DNA of 59,939 nt. It comes from Pseudomonadota bacterium (GTDB lineage: Bacteria; Pseudomonadota; Gammaproteobacteria; Steroidobacterales; Steroidobacteraceae). This document shows, one piece after another, positions 1,245-44,369 of this stretch. A program made the position numbers and the translations under genes. The notes under the pieces were generated by a model. It made no database searches. It saw only the letters and a program-made list of their open reading frames with translations, and was not told the DNA's origin. Numbering within the stretch: position 1 is the first letter of the stretch; each line of letters begins with the position of its first letter. The stretch covers positions 1 to 59,939 of the forward strand of contig JAKBWB010000048.1 in the NCBI GenBank assembly GCA_021843755.1, read 5' to 3'.

Positions 1245-2248
1245 AGGCAATGCGCAAGTCTCCGGCCCGATTTGCCGGTACGGTCGGCCTCGTCGCGGCG
1301 GCATTGCTGCTTGCGCTGTCAGCGGCCGCGCACGCGGCGGTGCCGGTGCGGACCGCGCTCGTGGAACGCTCGGCCTGGCGTCCGCGGGTGCACGCCATCG
1401 CCCGGGTACGAAGTGTCAATCATGTCACCCTGAGCGCCCCGCTGAGCGGGCGAGTCTGGGAGCCCGCGCGCTCCGTGGGCGAGGTTCGCGCCGGGACGCT
1501 GCTCGCGCGGATCAGGCCGCCGGGCCTGCAGGCGAGTCTGCAGGCGGCGCGCACGCAGCTGCACCTCGCGCAGCTCAACGTGCAGCGCGATCGTACGCTG
1601 TATCACGACGGCGTGGTGTCGCTGCAGGTCCTGCAGGGCAGCCGCGCGACGGAGAAACAGATGCAGGCACAGGTACAGGCGCTGCAAGGACAACTCGACA
1701 ACCAGGCGATTCTTGCGCCGTTTACGGGCATTCTCGACTATCGGGTGCCCTCCGGGGCGGTGGTCAACGCTGGTACGCCGATCGTGACCCTGGACGGACG
1801 CGGCGCGCCGTGGATCGAAGCGCTGCTGTCGCCGATGAACGCCATGCGCCTGTCTCGAGCCGCACCCGTCGCGATTCGTTTCGCGGGCTGGTCGGGCAGC
1901 GGACGCATCCACAGTATTGGCCACAGCGCGCGCCAGTCGGGTCTGGTCACCGTGTACGTGACGCCGCCGCCGCGCGCGCCGCTGTTGCCCGGAGAGTGGG
2001 TGCACCTGCGCTTCGCGCAACGTTCCACACCGGGCTTCGTCGTGCCCCTGCGTGCGGTGGTCATGCAGGGTGCCGATGCGTTTGTGTTCATCGATCGGGG
2101 CGGCCGCGCGGTACGCGTGCCGGTCACGGTGCTCGGTACACGCGGGGCCCGCGCTTGGGTCACCGGCGGGTTGCGTAGCGGCGAGACCGTGGTCGTGCGC
2201 GGCGCCGGACGACTGGCCAACGGCACGCAGCTGCTCGTCGCGCCATGA
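1241..2248 (+). CDS. RND efflux periplasmic adaptor subunit (HlyD/MFP family)
   Basis: 335 residues. The N-terminus has a hydrophobic Ala/Leu signal segment (about residues 13-32, ending near AHA). Then come the split lipoyl/barrel-sandwich half (GRVWEPARSVGEVRAGTLLARI), a Gln/Leu-rich helical hairpin around residues 85-140 (LQAARTQLHLAQLNVQRDR) and the second lipoyl half (ILAPFTGILDYRVPSGAVV). This is the domain order of membrane fusion proteins that bridge an inner membrane RND pump and a TolC channel. It overlaps the outer membrane gene upstream and the pump gene downstream by 4 bp each, so the three form one translationally coupled unit. The short hairpin fits RND rather than ABC partners. 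Confidence 0.9.
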   Translation: MKAMRKSPARFAGTVGLVAAALLLALSAAAHAAVPVRTALVERSAWRPRVHAIARVRSVNHVTLSAPLSGRVWEPARSVGEVRAGTLLARIRPPGLQASLQAARTQLHLAQLNVQRDRTLYHDGVVSLQVLQGSRATEKQMQAQVQALQGQLDNQAILAPFTGILDYRVPSGAVVNAGTPIVTLDGRGAPWIEALLSPMNAMRLSRAAPVAIRFAGWSGSGRIHSIGHSARQSGLVTVYVTPPPRAPLLPGEWVHLRFAQRSTPGFVVPLRAVVMQGADAFVFIDRGGRAVRVPVTVLGTRGARAWVTGGLRSGETVVVRGAGRLANGTQLLVAP

Positions 2249-5200
2249 TCCGCCACTACCTGCGGTTCCAATGGGAGAATCGCTACACGGTGGCGGTACT
2301 GGCGGTCGTGCTGCTGTTGGCCGGCTGGGTTGCTTTCGAGCGTTTGCCGCAGAGCATATTCCCGCCCGTCGACTTCCCCAAGGTCGCCGTTCTGGTGCAC
2401 ACCAATGACCTGCCGGTGCGATACATGCTGCTGGCGGTGACCGAGCCGATGGAGCAGGCCGCCAAGGGCGAGCCGGGGGTGACGCGGGTGCGTTCCCAGA
2501 CGGGTGTCGGGCTGACCAAGCTGCACGTGTATTTCAGCTCCAGGACCAACCCCGAAACCGCGTATCTGCTGCTGCAGGCGCGGCTCGCGCACATCCCGCT
2601 GCCGCCGGGCGCGAGCGTGAGCGTGCGCCTGATGCGACCCAACATCTATCCGCTGACCGAATACGCGCTGGTCTCGAACACCGTGGACAGTGCGGCGATG
2701 AAGCCGGTGTTCGCCTTCACGCTGCGTCCGGCGATTCTCGGGGTCCGGGGGGTATACCAGGCCAAGGACACCGGCAGGGGCTGGCCGGAAGTGCACCTCA
2801 CGCTCAGCCCGCGGCGTCTTGCCCAATATCATCTGAGCGCGGCCCGGGTGGTCGCGGCACTGCGTGCCTATCAGGGACCGTTCTTCGCCGGGATGCTGCA
2901 CGCGTTCCACCAGCAGTTCATCGCCGCCACGACGCCGCGTCCGCTCGATACGGCCGCGCTGGCCCGACTGCCGCTGCCACTCGGCCCGATGAGCGCGCGC
3001 GGTGCGCGCACCGCATTGCCGCTCGATGCGCTCGGTTCGGTGAGCATCGGTTCGCCGCCGCTGATCCGCGCGGCCGCGGTGCCCGGTTATCGCCATGCTC
3101 TGCTGGTGGATATTTCGGCACAACAGGGGGCGAATCAAGTTGCGGTCGCGGCGCGGGTGCGCGCGCGGCTGCGTGCCGTCGCGGCGCATCTGCCGCCGCA
3201 TGTGCACCTGGTGCGCATCTATGATTTGAGCCGGCTGATCGGCTCCAGCCTGAGCGATGTATGGATCGCGCTCGGACTCGGCAGCCTGATCGCCTTCGGG
3301 GTCGTGTATCTGTTTCTCGGGCGCATCGACGGCGCCATGGCGACCATGGTGGTGGTGCCGCTCGCGGTCGCCGCCACCATGGTGGTGCTTGATGTCCTCG
3401 GCCTGGGGATCAACATCATGACGCTCGGCGGCATCACCGCCGCCATCGGCGCGCTGGTTGATCACGCGATCGTCATTGTCGAGCGCGGGGTGCATGGGCT
3501 CGAGGGTGATCTGGCACAGCGGCGCGAGGCGGCGCTGCGCAAGGTGGCCGACATTCTGCCGTTGATGACCATGGCCACGCTCACCTCCTGTGTCATTTTT
3601 GTTCCGCTCATCTTTCTGTCGGGAACCATCGGGCTGCTGTTCCGCGGCATGGCCGCGGCGGTGGTCATCGCACTGGTCACTTCCCAGCTCATCGCGATCG
3701 TGATCACGCCCGCGTTCGCGATGTGGGTGGCGCAGCGTCCCCGTCCGGTTCACCGGCTGCCCGGGGAGCAGTGGCTGCGCCACAGGTACGGGCGCGCGCT
3801 GCTGCGCGGCATGCGCAAACCCGGCTGGGCCGCGCCCGTCGTGGCAGCGTTGCTGATCGTGGGGACCGTCGGGGTGTTGTGGTTGCCGACGGCCTTCCTG
3901 CCCCATTGGGACGAGGGCATTTTCGTGGTGCCATACCGCACACCGGTCGGCACGGGTGTGCGCGAAACGACCCAGGTGGGGCGGGACATGATGCGTATCG
4001 CTCTGCGCAACCCGGCGGTCGCGCGGGCCTCCTTGGTGGTCGGCCGCGGTCTGGGCAACGCCTACGCCACGCCGAACAAAGGTGGCATTACGATCCTGCT
4101 CAAGCGGCACCGCGGCGCAAGTGTCTGGCAGGTGATGCAACAGCTGCGGCAGCGGTTCCGCGCGGCGTTCCCGGATCTGACTACGCTCGAGACAATGCAG
4201 GTGATGATCAATCGCCTGGGGAATCTGTCCGGATCGCACGCTCCGCTGGTCGTCGAGCTGTTCGGCAAGAGCTCACTCGTGCTGCACCAGGCCGGCGAGC
4301 GGCTGCTGGCGGCATTGCTCGCGAGCCACGACTTTCAGTCCGTGGTGTTCAAGGCCCCCTCGGCCGGACCGGAGGTGCAGGTCACGCCGAACAGCCTGGC
4401 CGCGATCCAGGGGCTCACGCCGGCGAGTCTCGCCGGTCAGCTCGTGACGCGCCACTGGGGCGAGCGGGCGGGATTCCTGTTGCGGGGGGAGCAGATCGTG
4501 CCGATCCGCGTCGAGGAAGCCCATGCCGCCGACCGTACTCCGGTGAACTACGCCGATACGCGCATACGCCTGCCCAATGGCCGCTTCGCGCCGTTGTCGC
4601 AGGTGGCGCACGTGCATCTGCAGGGTGTCGTGCCGTATGTCACCCATCAGAATCTCGTTCCCTACGCCACCATCAAGCTGAGCCCCGTGCCGGGCGAGGG
4701 ACTGTCCGTGGCGGCGCGGCGCGCCGATGGGGTGATCGCGAAAGCCGCTCTGCCGCCGGGGGTCACCAGTCAGATCGGGGGCTACTACCGTGAGCAGCAG
4801 AAGAGCTTCCGGCAGATGCTGATCATCCTGGGCGCGGCGCTGTTGATCCTGCTGGTGCTGCTCGGCTATCAGTTCGGCAGCCAGAAGGCGGCGATCGTCG
4901 CCATCGTTTCCATTGCGCTCACGGCGGCCGGGACCCTGCTGGCGCTGCTGGCGAGCGGCTCCGACCTCGACAGCACGGCGTTTCTCGGTATGTTGCTGGT
5001 GTTCGCCATCGCGGTGAACAACGTGATTCTGATCTTCTCCCGCGCACATCAGCTCGACGGCGGTGTGCCCAGGCCGGCGAGCGTGGCGCTGGCCGCGCAC
5101 CAGCGGCTGCGTCCGATCCTCATGACGATGCTCGCGGACGTGTTGGGATTCCTGCCGATTGCTCTCGGCATCGGACGCGGCACCGACTTGTTGCGGCCTC

Positions 5201-11264: not shown

Positions 11265-12656
11265 ATGAACGGTAAAGTGGAAGCGGTTGCCCTCGAAGCT
11301 CGCCCGAAGGCGGCGGTATTCATCGGCTTGCTGGCAGCCCTGGCGGGCTTGATGTTCGGCCTGGATATCGGCGTGATCTCGGGCGCCGAGCAGTTTATCA
11401 AAGCGGATTTCGGCATCTCCGACGTAGTCCTGGAGCACATCGTCAGCTGGATGATGCTGGGGGCGGCCGTGGGCGCGCTCGCGGGCGGCTGGATGGCCAG
11501 GAGCCTCGGACGCAAGCGATCGCTCTTGGTGGGATCGGCGATATTCGTCGCGGCCTCGATCCTGTGCGGCGTGTCGTGGTCCGTTGAATCGCTCTTGGCC
11601 GGGCGCCTGATTCTCGGCGTATCGATCGGAATGCTCTCCTTCACCTCGCCGATCTATCTGGCTGAGATTGCCCCGGAGACCATACGCGGCTCGATGGTGT
11701 CGTTCTATCAATTGATGATCACCATCGGCATTTTTGTGGCTTATCTTTCGGATCTCGCCTTCAGCTACTCCGGGAACTGGCACTGGATGCTGGGCATCAT
11801 CGCCATTCCGGGGGTGCTGTTCTTCCTGGGTGTCTTTACACTGCCTGACAGTCCGCGCTGGCTGATGATGCGTGGACGTACCGAAGAGGCGACCCAAGTG
11901 CTGACCAGGCTGCGCGGCAACCCGCAAATCGTCGCGCAGGAAGAGCAGGAAATCGCCGCTCAATTACGCATCCCGCAGCATGGCTGGCGCATGTTTCTCC
12001 AGAACTCGAATTTCCGCCGTTCGGTGGGGCTGGGAATTCTGCTGCAGATCGTGCAGCAATTCACCGGCATGAATGTGGTGATGTATTACGCCCCGATCAT
12101 TTTCAAGGACATGGGATATCAGAAGGAAGCGCAGATGGTGTTTACCGCCATCGTCGGGCTGACCAATGTGCTGGCGACGTTCATTGCCATCTGGCTGGTC
12201 GACAAGTTGGGCCGCAAGCCGATCCTGTACATCGGATTTTCGGTGATGGCGGTCGGCATGGCGTTCGTGGGCATCATGATGCATCTGGGCATCGATACCC
12301 GTGTAGAGCAACTGTTCACCGTGGCCATGCTGCTGATCTTCATCATCGGCTTCGCGATGTCGGCGGGCCCGTTGATCTGGATTCTGTGCTCGGAGGTGCA
12401 GCCGATCAATGGCCGCGATTTCGGCATAGCGCTTTCCACGCTGACCAACTGGGTTGCCAATTTCGTGGTGGGCGCGACCTTCCTGACGCTGCTTAACAGC
12501 TTCGGGCATGCGCAGACGTTCTGGCTGTACGCCGGATTCAATGCCGTATTCCTGCTGATTACGGCAATGCTGGTGCCGGAGACCAAGAATGTCACCCTGG
12601 AATTCATCGAGCGCAACCTGATGGCCGGCAAGCCGCTGCGCAAGATTGGGCAATGA
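11265..12656 (+). CDS. MFS sugar:proton symporter (XylE/GalP type)
   Basis: 463 residues with 12 TM helices. Sugar porter signatures: GLMFGLDIGVISGAEQF in TM1, RSLGRKRSLL in the first cytoplasmic loop, PIYLAEIAPETIRGSMV after TM4, PDSPRWLMMRGR before the central loop, QQFTGMNVVMYYAP in TM7, VDKLGRKPIL and a C-terminal VPETKNVTLE. These define the MFS sugar porter family, importing hexoses or pentoses with protons across the inner membrane. ATG at 11265 follows AACGGAGACTCC. Placed 307 bp after the KDPGal aldolase and followed by its own terminator, so a separate transcript of the same functional block; galactose or arabinose is the likely cargo. Confidence 0.92.
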   Translation: MNGKVEAVALEARPKAAVFIGLLAALAGLMFGLDIGVISGAEQFIKADFGISDVVLEHIVSWMMLGAAVGALAGGWMARSLGRKRSLLVGSAIFVAASILCGVSWSVESLLAGRLILGVSIGMLSFTSPIYLAEIAPETIRGSMVSFYQLMITIGIFVAYLSDLAFSYSGNWHWMLGIIAIPGVLFFLGVFTLPDSPRWLMMRGRTEEATQVLTRLRGNPQIVAQEEQEIAAQLRIPQHGWRMFLQNSNFRRSVGLGILLQIVQQFTGMNVVMYYAPIIFKDMGYQKEAQMVFTAIVGLTNVLATFIAIWLVDKLGRKPILYIGFSVMAVGMAFVGIMMHLGIDTRVEQLFTVAMLLIFIIGFAMSAGPLIWILCSEVQPINGRDFGIALSTLTNWVANFVVGATFLTLLNSFGHAQTFWLYAGFNAVFLLITAMLVPETKNVTLEFIERNLMAGKPLRKIGQ

Positions 12657-12676
12657 GCTTTTCACGAGGCGACAAG

Positions 12677-12703
12677 AAAAGCCGCACACCGCGTGCGGCT
12701 TTT
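12677..12703 (+). terminator. Rho-independent terminator after sugar transporter
   Basis: Stem AAAAGCCGCAC / GTGCGGCTTTT with a 5-nt loop, 20 bp after the transporter stop, ending in TTTT. The A-tract makes it functional in both directions. Confidence 0.85.
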
Positions 12704-13232
12704 CCGGAGAAACCGGCCGTGCCGGGACTTGATGCCTCGGGAATCTGTCCACCGTGAATTCGCTTCGATGGGCATTCGAACCTACGGATCACGGCGAGGC
12801 ATTGGGTGGCGCTGCGAGTTTCAGGCAGAGGCACGGTCGAGGCGGCCGAGACCGAGCGGGCCGGGGCCGCATACGGGTTTGATCGGGTAGGGAGCGAGAA
12901 CTGCCTGGATGTTTCCGAAATAGACGTCAGCACGTTGGGACGCCGTTCTTGTAGGGAGCGGCCCGCGTGCGTTGCGGCTGCAGAAGCGCGCCGGCGTCGA
13001 TTCGGGCGAACGCCGACGGACAGCAGCAGGGCATGACGTTGGATGCGGCAGCGCCATCGGCAACGACGTTCCCAGCGTCATCGGCAATCCGGAGAAGGCC
13101 GGGCCGATGCGGCCGTAAAGCTCGCGCGCGATCCGCAATTACAACATGGCGGTCCCGCTGCTGCTGCGGCGCTACAGCACGCATGGGAACCGCGATCGGA
13201 AACCACCTCAAGAATGAGCCTTCAGACCCACA
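12704..13232. other. No recognisable gene
   Basis: Several short overlapping frames exist on both strands, none with a recognisable protein or a good ribosome binding site. The mixture of broken frames suggests decayed coding DNA, but I cannot name the ancestor. Confidence 0.4.
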
Positions 13233-13500
13233 TCAAAAAGCGCGCGCCTGCTCAGCGCATGCCGGAAATCCGCCGCCGGCCGCGACGCCAACCCTCCGGT
13301 CGAGGAGTCCCACGATCCCCGCCCGCCCATGGCGCTGCTGGTGTCGGCCGGCGGTACGCTCGGGCGCGCCGAGCGCCCGCGCCACCTCCGCTTGTTGCGC
13401 GAAACCCGCCTCAACCAACATCACATCGCATACGCCGCGGCTACCGCATCGGCGGCGCGGTAGTGATGCACCCACAAAGCCCTCCGACGGGAATCGCCCG
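13233..13500 (-). pseudogene. Relic of a helix-turn-helix transposase N-terminus
   Basis: On the minus strand one frame reads LVEAGFAQQAEVARALGAPERT followed by RHQQRHGRAGIVGLLDR. This resembles the N-terminal HTH of several transposase families (pattern: QxEVARAFGVxxRTVxRxxxRYxxxGxxGL). The preceding residues of the same motif (HYRAADAVAAAYAM) sit in another frame, so at least one frameshift separates them, and no catalytic domain follows. Family assignment is by pattern only and could be wrong. Confidence 0.4.
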
Positions 13501-13666
13501 CTGATCCTCCTCGGCGCGCAGCGTAGGGCGCGCATTGATCACTCCGGGGTTCGAGGGGGCGATCGCGGCTCCGGGGCCGGCTGCGTATTCATGGGCCGCA
13601 GCTAACAGCGGACAGGCATTGCTCCGCAACCGGCCTTACTGAAACCGCCTCTATTTCAGCCCGCTG

Positions 13667-13693
13667 CGTCCGGTCGAGTCAAAAGACCGGACG
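13667..13693. repeat. Inverted repeat (hairpin), 9-bp arms
   Basis: CGTCCGGTC and GACCGGACG separated by 9 nt. No T-run follows on either side, so it is not a standard terminator. Lies in the non-coding stretch before the TonB-dependent receptor. Confidence 0.5.
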
Positions 13694-13809
13694 GGTATTG
13701 GCGTGCATCCCGGCCACGCAAAAGCCCGAATTTCAGGCGCGAAAGGGGCTATGTCCGCAAGTCTGAACTCGGCGGCGATGGCGCTAAAAGGAACAGGTTT
13801 GCCCGCTGT

Positions 13810-13827
13810 ATTTGACGTCCGTCAAAT
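13810..13827. promoter_or_regulatory. Dyad ATTTGACG-TC-CGTCAAAT upstream of TonB-dependent receptor
   Basis: Perfect 8-2-8 inverted repeat 183 bp before the receptor start. The right size for a dimeric repressor or activator site; each arm also contains a TTGACG that could be a -35 box. A second inverted repeat lies 50 bp downstream. Regulator not known. Confidence 0.45.
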
Positions 13828-13877
13828 CGACAACACTTTGTCGCGAATATACTCGCGCCGTCGTCAGATAGCGGTAC

Positions 13878-13920
13878 CATATTTCCGAGGACAAAAAGCA
13901 ACGGTCGCCTTGGAAATATG
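13878..13920. promoter_or_regulatory. Inverted repeat CATATTTCC ... GGAAATATG in receptor leader
   Basis: Perfect 9-bp arms separated by 25 nt, 90-130 bp before the TonB-dependent receptor start. Could be two operator half-sites or a stem in the 5' leader. The half-site ATTTCC/GGAAAT also forms the compact palindrome before the lactonase gene at 8363-8375. Confidence 0.45.
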
Positions 13921-14009
13921 AGTCTGCCAAAAAAGGCGTCTGCCGTATCGGCGGCGGGGAGTGTTGCGGGTTAACAACATATCGGTTTGGGGCAGAGGGG
14001 GCATCAAAA

Positions 14010-17000
14010 ATGAGCTGGAAGACAGTACGTAACGCATCGAAGTACGCGTTCAAGAAAAACGCCGGGGTCGGTGCGATGGGCCGTGCGGCCTACCTCATGA
14101 TCGGCTTTGCAGGGTTGGCACTGGGCGTGTTCGCGTTAAACGCAGGCGCAGTGCTCTACGCCCGGAACGTCGTTCCGGAGAAAACCTCGGGTCAACAGGT
14201 GCTGCCGGGCAAGGCGGCAAAGATGAAACGGCGGAGGCTCGAAGCGCCGCCGAATGCCTCGCCGAGTGTGATCACGCGCAACGGCGCCGGGCTCTATGCC
14301 CAGAATACGACCGCGCCCCCGACGACCATCGGGACCGCGGGCTCGAACGGGCAATCCTCGGCCACCGCGCTGGCGCCGATCATCGTCACGGGCATCCGCG
14401 GGTCGCTGATGCGATCGCTCGCGATCAAGCGGGAGTCGATCGGCGTCGTCGATGCGATCTCGGCCGAAACGATCGGGCAGTTCCCTGACTCCTCGGTCGG
14501 CGGCGCACTCGCGCACCTGCCCGGCGTCACGGTCAATCGCGGTTCGCTCGCCTACTCGAGCGCGGAGGGATCGCCGGTTGCCGACGGGTTGCCCCAGGGC
14601 GTCAACGTCAACGGCTTCGGCGGGTCGTTCAATACCGTCCTGGAGAATGGCAGGCAGATCGCCTCCGGCAACGGACAGACGTTCAATTTCTCCGGCATCG
14701 GGGCCATGTACGTCGGGCAGATCGACGTATTAAAGACGCCCGATATGGCACTCTCTTCGGGCAATGTGGGCTCGGTGATCAACGTCAAGATGCTGACGCC
14801 CTTCGACAATCCCGGTCTGCACGTCGGGGTGAATGTCGGCGCGTCGGATTACACCATGGATGGCGGCAACCGTCCGGCGGTCGGGGCCCTGTTCAGCGAC
14901 ACCTTCGATCACAACAAGTTCGGCATCCTCGTTGATGGCGATTACACGGACTATCACACACTTGCGCACCAAATGGATGTCGCGGGTTGGAAGGGCATCG
15001 CCGCCGGGGGATTCCCCTGCTCGGATCTGGCGGCCAACTTCACCACGGCGTTCGGTAGCACCGGCTGCGCCAGCGTGGGTGCCGGCGCCACGGGCGACGC
15101 GCAGGTGCCCGTCTGGTATCCGCAGCAGATGTTGATGACCATGGCCAGGGTCGACACCCGGACCAAGGATGGGCGCGCGGTACTGCAGTGGCACCCCATC
15201 CGTTCGGTGATGGTGACTCTCGACGAGAACTACTCCTCATGGGATTATCACAACAAGCAATTCGAGCGCGCCAGCTGGTTTGGAGGCTTTCCTGATTCGA
15301 CGCTGGACCACAATGGCACGATCACCGACTTCAACTACACGGGTCCGATAGACTTCAATTCGGAGGTGGAGGATGAGTACATCGTCACGAACACGTATGG
15401 GCTGAATGTGCTGTGGAACGTCAATTCCGACTGGACCGTGGACGTCGACGCCGATCAGTCGAAATCGCAGTTCAACCCGAACGGCACGTACAGCCATGTC
15501 GACGTCGACACCGGCTTCGGGGATGCGAAAAACAACTACACGGGCGGTCTCGTGCTCAGCCAGAATGGCAATAATCTGCCGTACTGGAGCGCCTATGGAC
15601 CGAATGCCGTTGCCTCGGGCGCCGGCGCGGTCGCCTCGCCGAACTACAACGGCCTCGATCCGTTCATCATCGGCTCCCACGTCGTGCCTCTGCAAACGCA
15701 GCAGAACAGCGATCAGATCAACGAGGCGACCCTGCGGGCCACCTGGAACCCGGGCAACAGCACCAAGGTGACCTTCGGGGCGCAGTTCGTCGATGATGAC
15801 TGGAACACCAAAGAGAGGGACACCTTCACGAACAACTACTGGGAACTATGGGCGGGTTATGGACCGGCTTCGGGCAATGGGCCCGGTGCCGGCGTCGCAT
15901 TGCTGCCGTCGATGTTCTCGCCGGTCAGTGTCGGGACCTTCATGCCGGGTTACGGCAACAACGGCAATCTGCCGGGCACGCTGCTGTTGTACAACCCGTA
16001 CACGGTGCTCAATTACCTGATTCACCAGCCGGTCGATCCGAGCCAGAACGCAGTGGCCGTGGCGGACGGCTATCCGGCCTATACCGGCGGATATCTGCCC
16101 CCGGAGGCGCTGAGCCCGACTTCGGTGCAGCACGTGGCACGAATGAACTATGCGCCGTTCGTACAGGTCAGCCGCAATTTCCGGATCGACGGCATGAAGC
16201 TGATGACGCGCCTGGGAATGCGGTACCAGCGCACGGACGAGACCATCGGTGGTCTGAACTCTCTTGTCACGAACGTGTCATGGCTGGGCGCCAGCGATCC
16301 GACCGCGTACAGCTTTGCCCTGAGCAAGCCAACCTGGGTGCAGACGACGCGCTCCTACGGCTACTTCCTGCCGGCCTTGGACCTGGCGCTGTGGCCCACC
16401 GACGATCTGGAAACGGCCCTCGATTTCTCGCGGACGGAATCCGCACCGCCGAATGGCTCGTTGATCCCGAATACCAGCTATGGCGGCCGGGTGAATGCGC
16501 TGTCGGCGAGCGGCAACAATCCCGGGCTGCTGCCGTACCTGTCCAACAACTATGACCTGCGGGTGACCTGGTTCTACAAGCACGGCGACTACGCGGAGTT
16601 GCACCCGTTCTACAAGCAGGTGTCGAACTTCCCGACCTCAACCGTGACCGACGTCACCCTGCCCATCGACGATCCGGCACCGTGCACCTACACGGCCGGT
16701 GGCGCGGTGGTGTTCACGGATTCGAACTGCGGCAAGCCGATGGTGTTCGCGGAGTCCACCATCTCGAACAAGCTGTCGGCGGACGTGACGGGTGTGTCGG
16801 CGACCTGGCAGCAGATGCTGCCGTACGGGTTCGGTGTGCTGATCAACGGCACATGGATGCACTCCAACGCGAACTTCAATGACTATAGCCTCACCAGCAA
16901 TCAATTCGCGTTGTCCGGAGTGGGGAGCTCGGCGAACGGCACGTTGTTCTATCAGCGCAACAAGTGGCAGGCGCGTCTGACGGTGAACTGGCAGGCGAAA

Positions 17001-17246
17001 CTTCTGCTATTGGTCGGACAGGAGCAGGGCGGAGGCGCGTTCGGTAACGAGCCGGTCTATCAGGCGCCGTTCACGCAGCTCGATTTTGCGACGAACTACC
17101 AGGTCGACAAGTATCTGAACGTGTACTTCGATGCGAACAATCTGCTCAATTCCATCTATCACACGTATGGACGGTTCCCGAATCAGACCTTGGATGTGAT
17201 CGACTACGGCACGTCGCTCGAGTTCGGAGTGCGGGCGAAGTTCTGA
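14010..17246 (+). CDS. TonB-dependent receptor, Xanthomonas/Caulobacter type
   Basis: 1078 residues. A long basic n-region and one hydrophobic segment (AYLMIGFAGLALGVFALN, about residues 28-45) form the signal peptide. The TonB box region reads APIIVTGIRGSLMRSL near residue 125, followed by a plug domain (GQFPDSSVGGALAHLPGVTVNR) and a long 22-strand barrel ending in the typical C-terminal aromatic strand (YGTSLEFGVRAKF). The IVTGIRxSLxxSL box and NVNGF motif match the TonB-Xanth-Caul subfamily, which imports carbohydrates across the outer membrane. ATG at 14010 with GAGGGGG upstream. Between the sugar symporter and the aldonate dehydratase, so its substrate is probably a galactoside or pectin-type oligosaccharide (inference). 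Confidence 0.93.
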   Translation: MSWKTVRNASKYAFKKNAGVGAMGRAAYLMIGFAGLALGVFALNAGAVLYARNVVPEKTSGQQVLPGKAAKMKRRRLEAPPNASPSVITRNGAGLYAQNTTAPPTTIGTAGSNGQSSATALAPIIVTGIRGSLMRSLAIKRESIGVVDAISAETIGQFPDSSVGGALAHLPGVTVNRGSLAYSSAEGSPVADGLPQGVNVNGFGGSFNTVLENGRQIASGNGQTFNFSGIGAMYVGQIDVLKTPDMALSSGNVGSVINVKMLTPFDNPGLHVGVNVGASDYTMDGGNRPAVGALFSDTFDHNKFGILVDGDYTDYHTLAHQMDVAGWKGIAAGGFPCSDLAANFTTAFGSTGCASVGAGATGDAQVPVWYPQQMLMTMARVDTRTKDGRAVLQWHPIRSVMVTLDENYSSWDYHNKQFERASWFGGFPDSTLDHNGTITDFNYTGPIDFNSEVEDEYIVTNTYGLNVLWNVNSDWTVDVDADQSKSQFNPNGTYSHVDVDTGFGDAKNNYTGGLVLSQNGNNLPYWSAYGPNAVASGAGAVASPNYNGLDPFIIGSHVVPLQTQQNSDQINEATLRATWNPGNSTKVTFGAQFVDDDWNTKERDTFTNNYWELWAGYGPASGNGPGAGVALLPSMFSPVSVGTFMPGYGNNGNLPGTLLLYNPYTVLNYLIHQPVDPSQNAVAVADGYPAYTGGYLPPEALSPTSVQHVARMNYAPFVQVSRNFRIDGMKLMTRLGMRYQRTDETIGGLNSLVTNVSWLGASDPTAYSFALSKPTWVQTTRSYGYFLPALDLALWPTDDLETALDFSRTESAPPNGSLIPNTSYGGRVNALSASGNNPGLLPYLSNNYDLRVTWFYKHGDYAELHPFYKQVSNFPTSTVTDVTLPIDDPAPCTYTAGGAVVFTDSNCGKPMVFAESTISNKLSADVTGVSATWQQMLPYGFGVLINGTWMHSNANFNDYSLTSNQFALSGVGSSANGTLFYQRNKWQARLTVNWQAKLLLLVGQEQGGGAFGNEPVYQAPFTQLDFATNYQVDKYLNVYFDANNLLNSIYHTYGRFPNQTLDVIDYGTSLEFGVRAKF

Positions 17247-17884
17247 AATGCATCGCCGCCGAGTCATTGCATGGGCAACTGTCCAAGGAGCGGAGCGTGT
17301 GCACTGGGAAGGCCGGGTCCGGAGCCGCAGATCGTGGGTCACGCCGTGGAGCGGATGCGAGCGTGGTGTGAAGCCAGGTGCGAGCGGGATCCGGCGATGG
17401 GTGCGGGGCCGTGAAGGGTCGACGTGAGCATCGTCCGCCGGGATTGCGCTGCGCGAGCCGCAATATGCCGCGCAACGCTCGAGTCCTGGTGTCACGGGGC
17501 CCGGACCGGTCGCTCTCCAGGAAGGCCGCAGGAGGGAAACAAAGCCCCGGGGATGACCCCCGGGGCTTGATCATCGAGACGCCGGGCAAGACGCGATGTG
17601 CCGAGCGCGCGTGTTCGGATGGGCGCTTGCCTCGAGGTCCACTGGCGCGAGTTCGCTCGAGACCTGTGGGGGGCGCTGAACGCCGAGACGGTCGTTCGCG
17701 GAACGGAGCCTGACCTGCGGCGCGATCCGGTGCGGGCGCGCGCCGATGATCCACCGGCGTTGGAACGAGCACGGAGGCGAGTGACCCCGCCGGTATGAGC
17801 CATGTGCGCAACGTCCGCGCACGCCAGCCACGGCGGCGTTGCGTGCGCAGTCAAGCAGTGCGTCCGGCGGCACATGTGAGAGTC
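17247..17884. other. Intergenic stretch without a convincing gene
   Basis: 640 bp between the receptor stop and the structured element. All frames are GC-biased, with no recognisable protein and no good start site. The only clear signal is the terminator hairpin at 17542-17568. Confidence 0.5.
17542..17568. terminator. Strong GC-rich terminator hairpin
   Basis: Perfect 11-bp stem AAGCCCCGGGG / CCCCGGGGCTT with a 5-nt loop. Read on the minus strand it is followed by TGTTT, making it a plausible terminator for minus-strand transcripts. On the plus strand it could stop the receptor transcript 300 bp after its end. Confidence 0.65.
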
Positions 17885-18226
17885 GTCCTGTCCCTTGCGC
17901 CGGTTCGCGGACCTGGATATAAGATCAGCCGCACGAACGACGTGCCTACCGCCGAGAGGGCGGGAAGTTACGCGCGGGGGTGCGACGCATGCGTCGCACG
18001 GGTGGCCATGGCGGCCACCCTGGGCATTCTGCGAAGCCAGGATGGCGAAGCAGAATGGGCCTGCGCGGCGGAGGCAGCGAACGGGTAACCGTTCACCCGC
18101 CTCAGCGCCGCCCCACGAAGAACCGCGAACCGGCCCAAAGGTCCTTGCAAGCCCCAAGGCTTGCACGGACCGAGATACGGCAAGTGCTGTCTGGAACGGC
18201 ATGAAGACGTGTCGGGGCAGGACTAA
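17885..18226 (+). ncRNA. Candidate structured RNA element inserted in a DUF1348 gene
   Basis: About 342 bp of nested complementary segments. Outer helix: 17885-17894 with 18214-18223 (10 bp, one G-U). Inner closing helix: 17900-17910 with 18123-18133 (11 perfect bp, CCGGTTCGCGG/CCGCGAACCGG). Enclosed hairpins: 17931-17945, 17949-17963, 17980-17999 (20-bp perfect palindrome), 18000-18020, 18025-18057 (8-bp stem, symmetric GAA/GAA internal loop, 3-bp stem) and 18065-18111 (stepped stem capped by a GUAA tetraloop). One further hairpin follows at 18140-18171. GNRA loop and GAA/GAA loop occur only when read as plus-strand RNA. The right end lies 4 bp from where homology of the DUF1348 gene stops. 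No protein is encoded. Identity unknown: a HEARO/omega-RNA-like element, an intron-like ribozyme or a structured MITE are the options. Confidence 0.6.
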
Positions 18227-18559
18227 GAACTCCCAGTTCTCATTGCCGTAGGAGCGGAACCAGGCGCCGCCGGAGTCGTGCCACTCATACGCGAAGCGCA
18301 CGGCGATGCGGTTGCCGGTGTAGGCCCAGACTTCCTTGATCAGCCGGTAATCGAGTTCGCGTGCCCACTTGCGCTCGAGGAACGCGAGGATCTCGGCGCG
18401 GCCGTTGAGGAATTCCGCGCGGTTGCGCCGGCGGCTGTCCTCGGTGTAGGCGAGCGCGACGCGCCCGGGGTCGCGGCTGTTCCAGGCATCTTCGGCCGCG
18501 CGGGCCTTGAGGGCGGCGCTCTCGGCGGTAAAGGGCGGCAGCGGTGGGCGGTTGGACAT
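18227..18559 (-). pseudogene. DUF1348 (SnoaL-like/NTF2 fold) protein, 3' end lost
   Basis: 111 codons remain of a family normally about 150 residues long. The retained part is clear: [62 protein letters not shown] and [20 protein letters not shown] then WEF. The expected continuation (a DENGLMRRR-like stretch and INDLPI) is missing; the frame runs instead into the structured element at 17885-18226. The frame stays open through the element, so a chimeric protein could still be made. Start ATG at 18559 ([10 protein letters not shown]) with GGAGCAGGCC upstream. Family function is not established. Confidence 0.75.
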
Positions 18560-18617
18560 GGCCTGCTCCTCGATCGTAACGATCCGCACCCGCGGTATGG
18601 ATCGCGCCGCGGGCCGA

Positions 18618-20429
18618 TCAGTGATTGTCGCGCGGCACGCCGAAGCGCGCCTCGACCCGCTGATACTTCTCCGCGCCGTTGAGGATCATGCCATCGCCGA
18701 GCTGGCTCACCATGGCGCGCTGGATTTGCTGCCACGGCGTCTGCGAGGGCGGCGAGCGGTAGCCGCCCGCCGCCTCGAGCGCCGCGCGCCGTGCGGCCAG
18801 CTCGCGCTCCTCCAGGAGCACCTCGACCGTGCGCTTGCGCAGATCGACGCGCACCCGGTCGCCGGTCTTGAGCAAGGCGAGGCCGCCGCCGGCGGCCGCC
18901 TCTGGGGAGGCATTGAGGATCGAGGGGGATCCGGAGGTGCCGGACTGGCGGCCGTCGCCGATGCACGGCAGGACCGTGATTCCCTGTTTGATCAGGTAGC
19001 TGGGCGGACGCATGTTGACCACCTCGGCCGAGCCGGGATAGCCGATCGGACCGGTGCCGCGCATCACCAATATCGTGTGCCGGTCGATGCCGAGGGCCGG
19101 ATCGTCGATGCGCGCGTGATAATCCTCGGGCCCGTCGAATACGGCGACCGGTCCCTCGAACGCGTCCGGATCCCGCGGATCGCTCAGATGGCGGGTGCGG
19201 AACTCCGCGGAAATCACGCTGGTTTTCATGATGGCCGAATCGAACAGGTTGCCGCGCATGACCAGAAAGCCCGCATTGGCTTTCAGCGGCCGATCGATCG
19301 GGCGAATGACCTGCTCGTCGGCGATTGGGCGGCCACGGCAGTTCTCGCCGATGGTGTGGCCGTTCGCCGTCAGCGCCTGCTCGCGGATCAAGCCGGCCTG
19401 CATGAGTTGATTGACTACAGCCGGCACGCCGCCGGCGCGGTGAAAGTCCTCCGCCAGGTACTCCCCGGCGGGCTGCAGGTTCACCAGCAGCGGAACCTCG
19501 TAGCCGTGGCGCTGCCAGTCATCGAGCGTGAGCTCGACGCCCATGTGCCGGGCAATCGCCTCGATGTGAATCGGCGCGTTGGTCGAGCCACCGATGGCCG
19601 AGTTCACCACGATGGCGTTGAGGAACGCCTCGCGCGTCATGATCGCGGAGGGCCGCAGGTCCTCGCGCACCATCTCGACGATGCGCACGCCGCTCTCATA
19701 GGCGATCTGCCCGCGCTCCCGGTAGGGGGCCGGAATGTTCCCCGCGCCGGGCAGCTGCATCCCGAGAGCTTCGGCGAGCGAGTTCATGGTGCTGGCGGTG
19801 CCCATGGTGTTGCAATAGCCGGTCGAGGGGGTCGATGCGGCCACGCGCTCCATGAACCCCGCATAGTCGATCTCGCCGGCCGCCAGCAGCTGCCGGGCCT
19901 GCCACACGATGGTGCCGGAGCCGACCCGCTCGCCGTTGAACCAGCCGTTGGTCATCGGCCCGACCGAAAGCGCGATGGCCGGAATGTCCACGGTCGCTGC
20001 GGCCATCAGGCACGCTGGCGTCGTCTTGTCGCAGCCGATGGTGAGCACCACCCCATCGAGCGGATAGCCGTGCAGGATCTCCACCAGGCCGAGATAGGCG
20101 AGATTGCGATCGAGCGCGGCGGTCGGACGGCGGCTGGTTTCCTGAATGGGATGAACCGGAAATTCGATCGGCACGCCCCCGGCGGTGCGGATGCCGGCGG
20201 CCACGCGCTCGGCGAGCACCACGTGATGGCGGTTGCACGGCGAGAGGTCCGAGCCGGTCTGGGCGATGCCGATGATCGGCCGGCCCGACTGCAGCTCCGC
20301 GAGCGTCAGACCGTAGTTCAGATAGCGCTCGAGATGCAGGGCGGTCATGCCCGGATCATGCGGATCATCGAACCACGCGCGCGAGCGCAGCTTCGGTCCG
20401 GTGGCTTGTTTGCGGTCTGTTGCGCTCAT
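18618..20429 (-). CDS. IlvD/Edd-family sugar acid (aldonate) dehydratase
   Basis: 603 residues from ATG 20429. Iron-sulfur dehydratase of the IlvD/Edd family, subgroup of xylonate/arabonate/galactonate dehydratases: [37 protein letters not shown] (first cluster Cys), [15 protein letters not shown] (second Cys), [11 protein letters not shown] (third Cys), [25 protein letters not shown] and [14 protein letters not shown]. It removes water from an aldonic acid to give a 2-keto-3-deoxy acid. With dgoK and dgoA nearby, galactonate (or fuconate) is the likely substrate, but the closest remembered relative is the Caulobacter xylonate dehydratase, so specificity is open. Divergent from the GntR regulator, which probably controls it. 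Confidence 0.88.

Positions 20430-44275: not shown

Positions 44276-44369
<94 letters not shown>

Follow-up and report, generated by a model that had tools for sequence, protein, structure and literature searches.

A probable tnpB-deleted mobile element with a predicted guide-RNA scaffold in a genus of Steroidobacteraceae

What is the strongly folded stretch of about 340 nt that stands where a DUF1348 gene breaks off in a Steroidobacteraceae genome? The DNA analysed here (the window) is 59,939 nucleotides long and belongs to genome G000 (3.3 Mb, 72 contigs). The original prediction described positions 17885-18226 as one closed, multi-hairpin RNA that had inserted into DUF1348, could not be assigned to a family and might be new. 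The stems are where they were said to be: the outer helix (17885-17894 with 18214-18223) forms 10 pairs including one G-U, the palindrome at 17980-17999 is perfect, and the 11-bp inner helix (17900-17910 with 18123-18133) is present as part of a 19-nt inverted repeat (89%). The pairing also exceeds chance, the 342 nt folding as RNA with a z of -8.6 and the reverse strand with -8.1, values equalled by none of 100 shuffles of each strand.

The limits of the element are different. Near-full copies lie on contigs C69, C35 and C48 of the same genome, and the stretch that they have in common with the window (17762-18224, 97.9-98.3% identity) opens at 17762, which places the start of the element 123 bases upstream of 17885. 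Alignment with wide flanks, with the last bases set by empty sites and DUF1348 orthologues, delimits a 465-bp mobile element at 17762-18226 (+) that covers most of the folded stretch and that the predicted coordinates had cut. Nor is the stretch a single closed RNA, since 17885-17923 consists of DNA of the left end and the promoter, while approximately 17978-18057 is a separate repeat unit. We put at about 95% the probability that 17762-18226 is a non-autonomous, tnpB-deleted element of TnpB type (IS200/IS605-like) with its guide-RNA scaffold retained. Its features are collected in Table 1.

Table 1. Features of the element and of its immediate surroundings in the window.
Feature	Position	Strand	Remarks
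Left flank 5-mer GCGTT	17757..17761	+	fits target motif RCNWY; stays outside LE
Left end (LE)	17762..17922	+	starts GGAACGAGCACGG; same LE upstream of tnpB in the parent
LE motif, left arm of outer helix	17885..17894	+	GTCCTGTCCC; complementary to RE tail
Residual tnpB promoter (predicted)	17895..17923	+	TTGCGC 17895-17900, 17-bp spacer, TATAAG 17918-17923
Deletion junction joining the start region of tnpB to its 3' end	17924..17951	+	common CTACCG 17946-17951; read by eye against L051 and L145
Right end (RE), 3' end of the tnpB frame and predicted omegaRNA/reRNA scaffold	17946..18226	+	interrupted by the 80-bp unit
Three-hairpin repeat unit, ~80 bp	17978..18057	+	20-bp palindrome 17980-17999; GAA/GAA stem 18025-18057
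RE tail	18214..18226	+	GGGGCAGGACTAA; most siblings finish GGACTCTAA or GGACTCTGA; tnpB stop codon inside in L051
Predicted guide, DUF1348 sequence next to RE	18227..18246	+	TCGTC directly before the same sequence in the closest intact orthologue
Truncated DUF1348 gene, breaking off at the element	18227..18559	-	PF07080 positions 1-104 of 130, E 2.8e-51; full-length in G007

Comparison of 29 orthologous DUF1348 loci fixed the right junction at 18226/18227. All 28 that are readable across this point are free of the element, match the window from 18227 onwards and carry DUF1348 sequence upstream in its place. In the closest orthologue, from genome G007, GCTCGTC precedes GAACTCCCAG, where the window has GGACTAA before GAACTCCCAG. 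Insertion into DUF1348 is thus borne out on the right side, where homology stops exactly at the end of the element, and fails on the left, where the flank does not continue DUF1348; the window copy therefore sits at a rearranged site. The window is without the last part of the gene, and the G007 sequence beyond DUF1348 matches window positions 11515-12721. In place of the DUF1348 end seen in G007, the window has about 5 kb (12722-17761) with a TonB-dependent receptor gene (14010-17246). Between that gene and the element lies a GC-rich, terminator-like 11-bp stem, AAGCCCCGGGG / CCCCGGGGCTT (17542-17568), with sub-threshold Rfam matches only.

The tnpB-bearing parent

The assignment comes from a relative, L051 (contig C41 of genome G023), which matches window positions 17760-17921 and then, about 1.24 kb further on, 17946-18224. 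Between its equivalents of the two ends L051 has an open TnpB frame (1943-3373), which spans the entire RE and finishes with its stop codon inside the element-terminal CTAA. Because tnpB is located between the same two ends in this relative, the window element is read as a tnpB-deleted, non-autonomous derivative. Sharing its ends with TnpB-encoding elements places it among TnpB-type IS200/IS605-like elements, in the class of PATEs and MITEs.

The nuclease encoded by tnpB is an RNA-guided relative of CRISPR Cas12. The L051 protein matches NCBIfam NF040570 (guided_TnpB, 4.9e-76) and the Pfam families OrfB_IS605, Cas12f1-like_TNB and HTH_OrfB, as well as the structure of ISDra2 TnpB (8h1j, 1.8e-55). 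Residues D195, E303 and D387, which we take to be catalytic, are invariant in 5/5 aligned TnpBs. End-to-end tnpB copies without stops occur only at L051 and G056:C84; those in G024, G013, G020 and G049 carry 1-3 stops. N-terminal TnpB pieces stand at the ends of contigs C10 and C19 of G000, and both break off at the identical tnpB base, so that this genome has at least two unassembled tnpB copies. At its right side L051 agrees with the end of G000:C31 without a single difference over 274 bases, flank included; the L051 contig may hence derive from a near relative of G000 and not from the species of G023, and is possibly misbinned.

By eye, the hexamer CTACCG occurs both in the start region of tnpB and at its 3' end, and the two are joined there in tnpB-less copies. 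An internal deletion at this 6-bp repeat would have removed nearly all of tnpB and joined its promoter to the omegaRNA-encoding 3' part. Deletion at CTACCG leaves the tnpB promoter directly upstream of the RNA scaffold, in a weakened form in the window copy. The tnpB-bearing sibling L145 (G007:C38) has TTGAGC-17-TATAAT directly upstream of tnpB, with 10/12 consensus matches (0.0 expected in shuffles). The consensus scan rejects the window version and finds no promoter on the element strand of sibling L059, where the -10 box is kept and the -35 box lost. The predicted promoter of the window copy is therefore weakened relative to that of L145.

Scaffold, helices and inserted repeat

Fifteen RE sequences from ten genomes, taken from tnpB-bearing and tnpB-less copies alike, gave an RNA consensus of 56 pairs, 19 of which show compensatory changes on both sides (row G037C45 was left out as degenerate between A2 and A3). 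Of its cells 96.6% are paired, versus 86.7% when shuffled. Covariation scores 0.311, where shuffled alignments give 0.149 (0/500 as high) and slid structures reach at most 0.098; these shuffles ignore relatedness, and the structure was derived from the very alignment on which it was tested. In the number of further pair types the alignment does not exceed chance (216/500 shuffles). A conserved secondary structure of this kind marks a TnpB omegaRNA/reRNA, and so does the layout seen at the DNA level in L051, where the RNA-encoding DNA takes in the 3' end of tnpB and terminates with RE. The 3' part of the element is thus a predicted TnpB guide RNA (omegaRNA/reRNA), and the deleted form retains the entire scaffold of about 170-200 nt. 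Covariation, proposed as a check on the helices, proved strong in this scaffold and absent for the 11-bp inner helix, which is missing in some divergent lineages (L150, L153).

The outer helix follows a different pattern. Within the five tnpB-bearing elements tested, LE GTCCYGCCC and RE GGGCRGGAC pair at 9/9 positions, with Y and R changing together; the window's own pair reaches 6/9 owing to one G-U, and the LE-only copy L053 is an exception, with GTCATGCCC at the LE motif. When partners were permuted among 17 elements, 0/5000 permutations were as good as the true pairs, relatedness being uncorrected here and in the subsets: 24/5000 in family A (7 elements) and 640/5000 in family B (10 elements), the latter not better than permuted. 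In the second family described below the 10-bp complement is weak. For the first family, alignment points to the 10-bp LE/RE complement as a conserved, covarying feature. The left arm of the 11-bp helix lies in the promoter spacer. Since the left arms of both helices are upstream of the -10 box, neither would be part of a transcript from the predicted promoter, and with the 11-bp helix absent in L150 and L153 both were dropped as functional parts of the RNA.

Three of the stems ascribed to the multi-stem RNA, among them the palindrome and the GAA/GAA stem, do exist and belong to an 80-bp repeat; sibling elements read AGT where it stands in the window. This unit is REP-like and occurs alone at many loci of the genus (among L032-L049) and also in a single genome from a different genus of the family. 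Its copies differ with the stems kept, as judged by eye, and the window copy has no Rfam match. Inside the element it is whole in four G000 copies, cut by contig ends in two more, and also found in G007 C31. The insert may disable the omegaRNA of the window copy.

Copies, insertion sites and movement

Second genomic copies with common ends, sought as a check on the original prediction, turned up in number within the genome and its relatives. Partial copies in G000 lie at or near the ends of contigs C27, C46, C44, C31, C19 and C30, as expected for a repeat that breaks assemblies. DNA matches were obtained in 35/119 related genomes, 34 of them in the same genus, some matching the internal repeat unit only; plasmid and phage records searched with the element gave no match. 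The RNA model R1, with at most 44 candidates scored per genome, finds the RNA in 25/58 genomes of the genus. Among scored candidates there are 26 matches in G000 (one on C31 is split in two, giving 25 places), 14 in G007 and 40 in G043. With stricter filters, 13 of 296 genomes drawn from the order were positive, all from this one genus of 68. G000 and G043 each have 3 places with TnpB residues outside the RE-coded tail, and G007 has 1; the counts for G007 and G043 are at E <1e-20, where weak fragments may be missed. All three G000 places are fragments, two of them at contig ends, against 25 omegaRNA places. A broader search of genome contigs kept 80 loci, 79 at 28-38% identity and one at 92%, the latter in a Gammaproteobacteria MAG record (isolate clean1778).

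Among weaker R1 matches we found a second tnpB-less family, with a distinct left region and the same CTACCG scaffold start. The copies read are seven in G000 (L325, L326, L328-L332) and three in G043 (L340, L342, L343). Their RNA is 73-90% identical with a similar fold, and a promoter-like box is visible by eye in 8/10. No TnpB match lies beside them on the same contig, in TnpB searches that may miss weak fragments with E above 1e-20.

One possible explanation for the retained scaffold is use in trans. The RNA would be transcribed through RE into the flank, and a TnpB from another locus would bind it, with the flank (DUF1348 in the window) as guide. TnpB would then cut empty alleles next to RCNWY and so favour retention of the element. 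We give this guide role an even chance. Somewhat below it we place the reading of the element as a passive MITE in which the two ends alone count and the omegaRNA part is a decaying remnant, devoid of guide function and kept since RE needs some of it for transposition. The weakened window promoter fits such a remnant, the 80-bp insert did not prevent spread (four whole and two contig-end-cut G000 copies), and end function alone could preserve some of the omegaRNA because it overlaps RE. Decay is harder to reconcile with retention of the whole scaffold, with RE copies of the deleted form in G000, G004 and G007 that are 91-99% identical to the window RE, or with the similar fold and promoter-like boxes held by the second, older tnpB-less family.

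The 31 distinct left flanks point to a degenerate motif, RCNWY, ahead of the LE insertion point, with a purine at -5 (28 flanks), C at -4 (30), A or T at -2 (28) and a pyrimidine at -1 (all 31). Of 34 right ends, 22 close with CTAA or CTGA and 8 with AA, after GGACT (or GGATT). The extreme ends are not inverted repeats; the 9-10 bp LE/RE complement has its arms 123 bp inside LE and 3-5 nt short of the RE terminus. A hairpin at LE is usual for the IS200/IS605-like family; here RE is strongly structured, and an LE hairpin is clearly above chance in 1/5 lineages folded.

Empty sites were queried for 12 elements, with two exact sites, three clean left deletions, one probable deletion, two uncertain cases (G000:C35 and G000:C69) and four without a clear site. 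For G007:C131 the exact site stands in G000:C35 (98%) and in G038, with near-exact versions in G043, G011 and G006; for G007:C191 it is G004:C136 that has the exact site. Both exact sites read motif then target, with no target-site duplication. Set against these, four other sites, one of them only probable, lack DNA directly left of LE and keep an intact right junction, a milder form of what the window copy shows. The missing segment is 106-107 bp at G000:C48 (C48:85057) relative to three relatives, 109 bp at G049:C63 relative to one and about 47 bp at G004:C99 relative to one. At G004:C141 it is probably 23-26 bp relative to two G007 loci, with larger gaps relative to G038 and G043. Three of these sites have a new left junction that fits the motif; that of G000:C48 misses one position. 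On one reading of the three clean sites, the probable one and the window, LE could be rejoined to another nearby motif.

Movement in trans by a single-strand (Y1-type) transposase is the probable route, and the same good odds hold for the joint claim of tnpB-deleted identity and movement in trans. Y1 (PF01797) was found in 6/16 genomes searched and not in G000 or G007, an absence that is not decisive, as assemblies break at these repeats. A simple pattern search did not see the element's ends at the six best Y1 loci. At G056:C96 a Y1 gene neighbours a distant TnpB that is 31% identical and has one stop; the element's ends are absent there. The missing Y1 gene in G000 and G007, together with a TnpB that stays under the curated cut-offs for the IS200 as well as the IS607 subfamily model, could instead point to another recombinase, e.g. 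a serine recombinase as in IS607. We consider this unlikely, since the IS200 model outscores the IS607 model (270.5 versus 206.3 bits) and duplication-free insertion immediately 3' of a short motif is how IS200/IS605 elements insert (PMC7290912).

The original prediction was right in seeing a structured, mobile, MITE-like element that ends sharply at DUF1348, and in looking towards omega RNAs. No Rfam family matched at the element, either with the gathering score applied across the window or with E up to 5 admitted in 17500-18700, and the latter scan returned neither HEARO nor a group I or II intron. The sole gathering-level match in the window is a tRNA at 44276-44364. Two other readings have negligible probability. 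A new RNA class or ribozyme with no relation to TnpB, inserted in DUF1348, would fit the lack of a match and the strong fold; against it stand the continuous homology to the tnpB 3' end and to both ends of tnpB elements and the absence of the inner helix in some divergent lineages, and in our view the tnpB-bearing parent refutes it. A HEARO/IscB-type omega RNA or a group I/II intron fragment would fit the size and many stems (gene-less HEARO having been named); against it stand the Rfam result at E up to 5 and the associated protein, which is TnpB. The parent supplies the assignment that Rfam does not.

Known systems and a possible guide repertoire

Elements of the PATE/MITE kind without tnpB are already known, and the structured stretch is not a new RNA class. 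The closest precedent in the literature consulted is a PATE-like IS605 element of Halanaerobium hydrogeniformans (PMC7290912), likewise an ends-only derivative, with 28 nt of LE, no tnpA, the last 58 nt of tnpB and the whole 160-nt RE. Whereas that element is described there in one copy, the present one has several copies, a 161-bp LE with the tnpB promoter region, covariation and a second family. In ISDra2 (PMC8612924) the reRNA comes from the tnpB 3' end and RE, the flank is the guide and the motif 5' of LE is the TAM. The layout of ISDra2 TnpB and its reRNA (PDB 8h1j, 8bf8) recurs here as predicted from the DNA; the motif is the degenerate RCNWY in place of TTGAT, and tnpB is missing from the window copy. 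It is established (PMC8612924, PMC10278001) that RE marks where the TnpB omegaRNA scaffold ends on its 3' side and that the guide lies outside the transposon, as it would here. The omegaRNA of PMC10278001 derives from tnpB mRNA, whereas the present RNA would arise from its own short unit. IS607 TnpB with a RAGATH-18-derived reRNA (PMC11061315) likewise combines TnpB with a conserved 3' RNA; here no Rfam family matched. Among the best literature matches listed, no title is on tnpB-less elements as guide donors.

The many predicted guide RNAs contrast with the few tnpB genes. We tentatively suggest, at clearly less than even odds, that the tnpB-less elements act in this genus as stand-alone guide-RNA genes, made up of promoter and scaffold with landing-site DNA as guide, and that one or a few tnpB genes would serve a guide set spread over the whole genome. 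A structured element that was formerly unassigned now has an assignment, and its family offers a degenerate motif, RCNWY, together with a possible pattern of LE-side deletion at insertions. The family is a natural test case for TnpB acting in trans with guide RNAs of tnpB-less elements. If the suggestion is true, the genus would hold a dispersed, self-programming set of guides spread by transposition, and a shared nuclease would protect many non-autonomous copies from loss.
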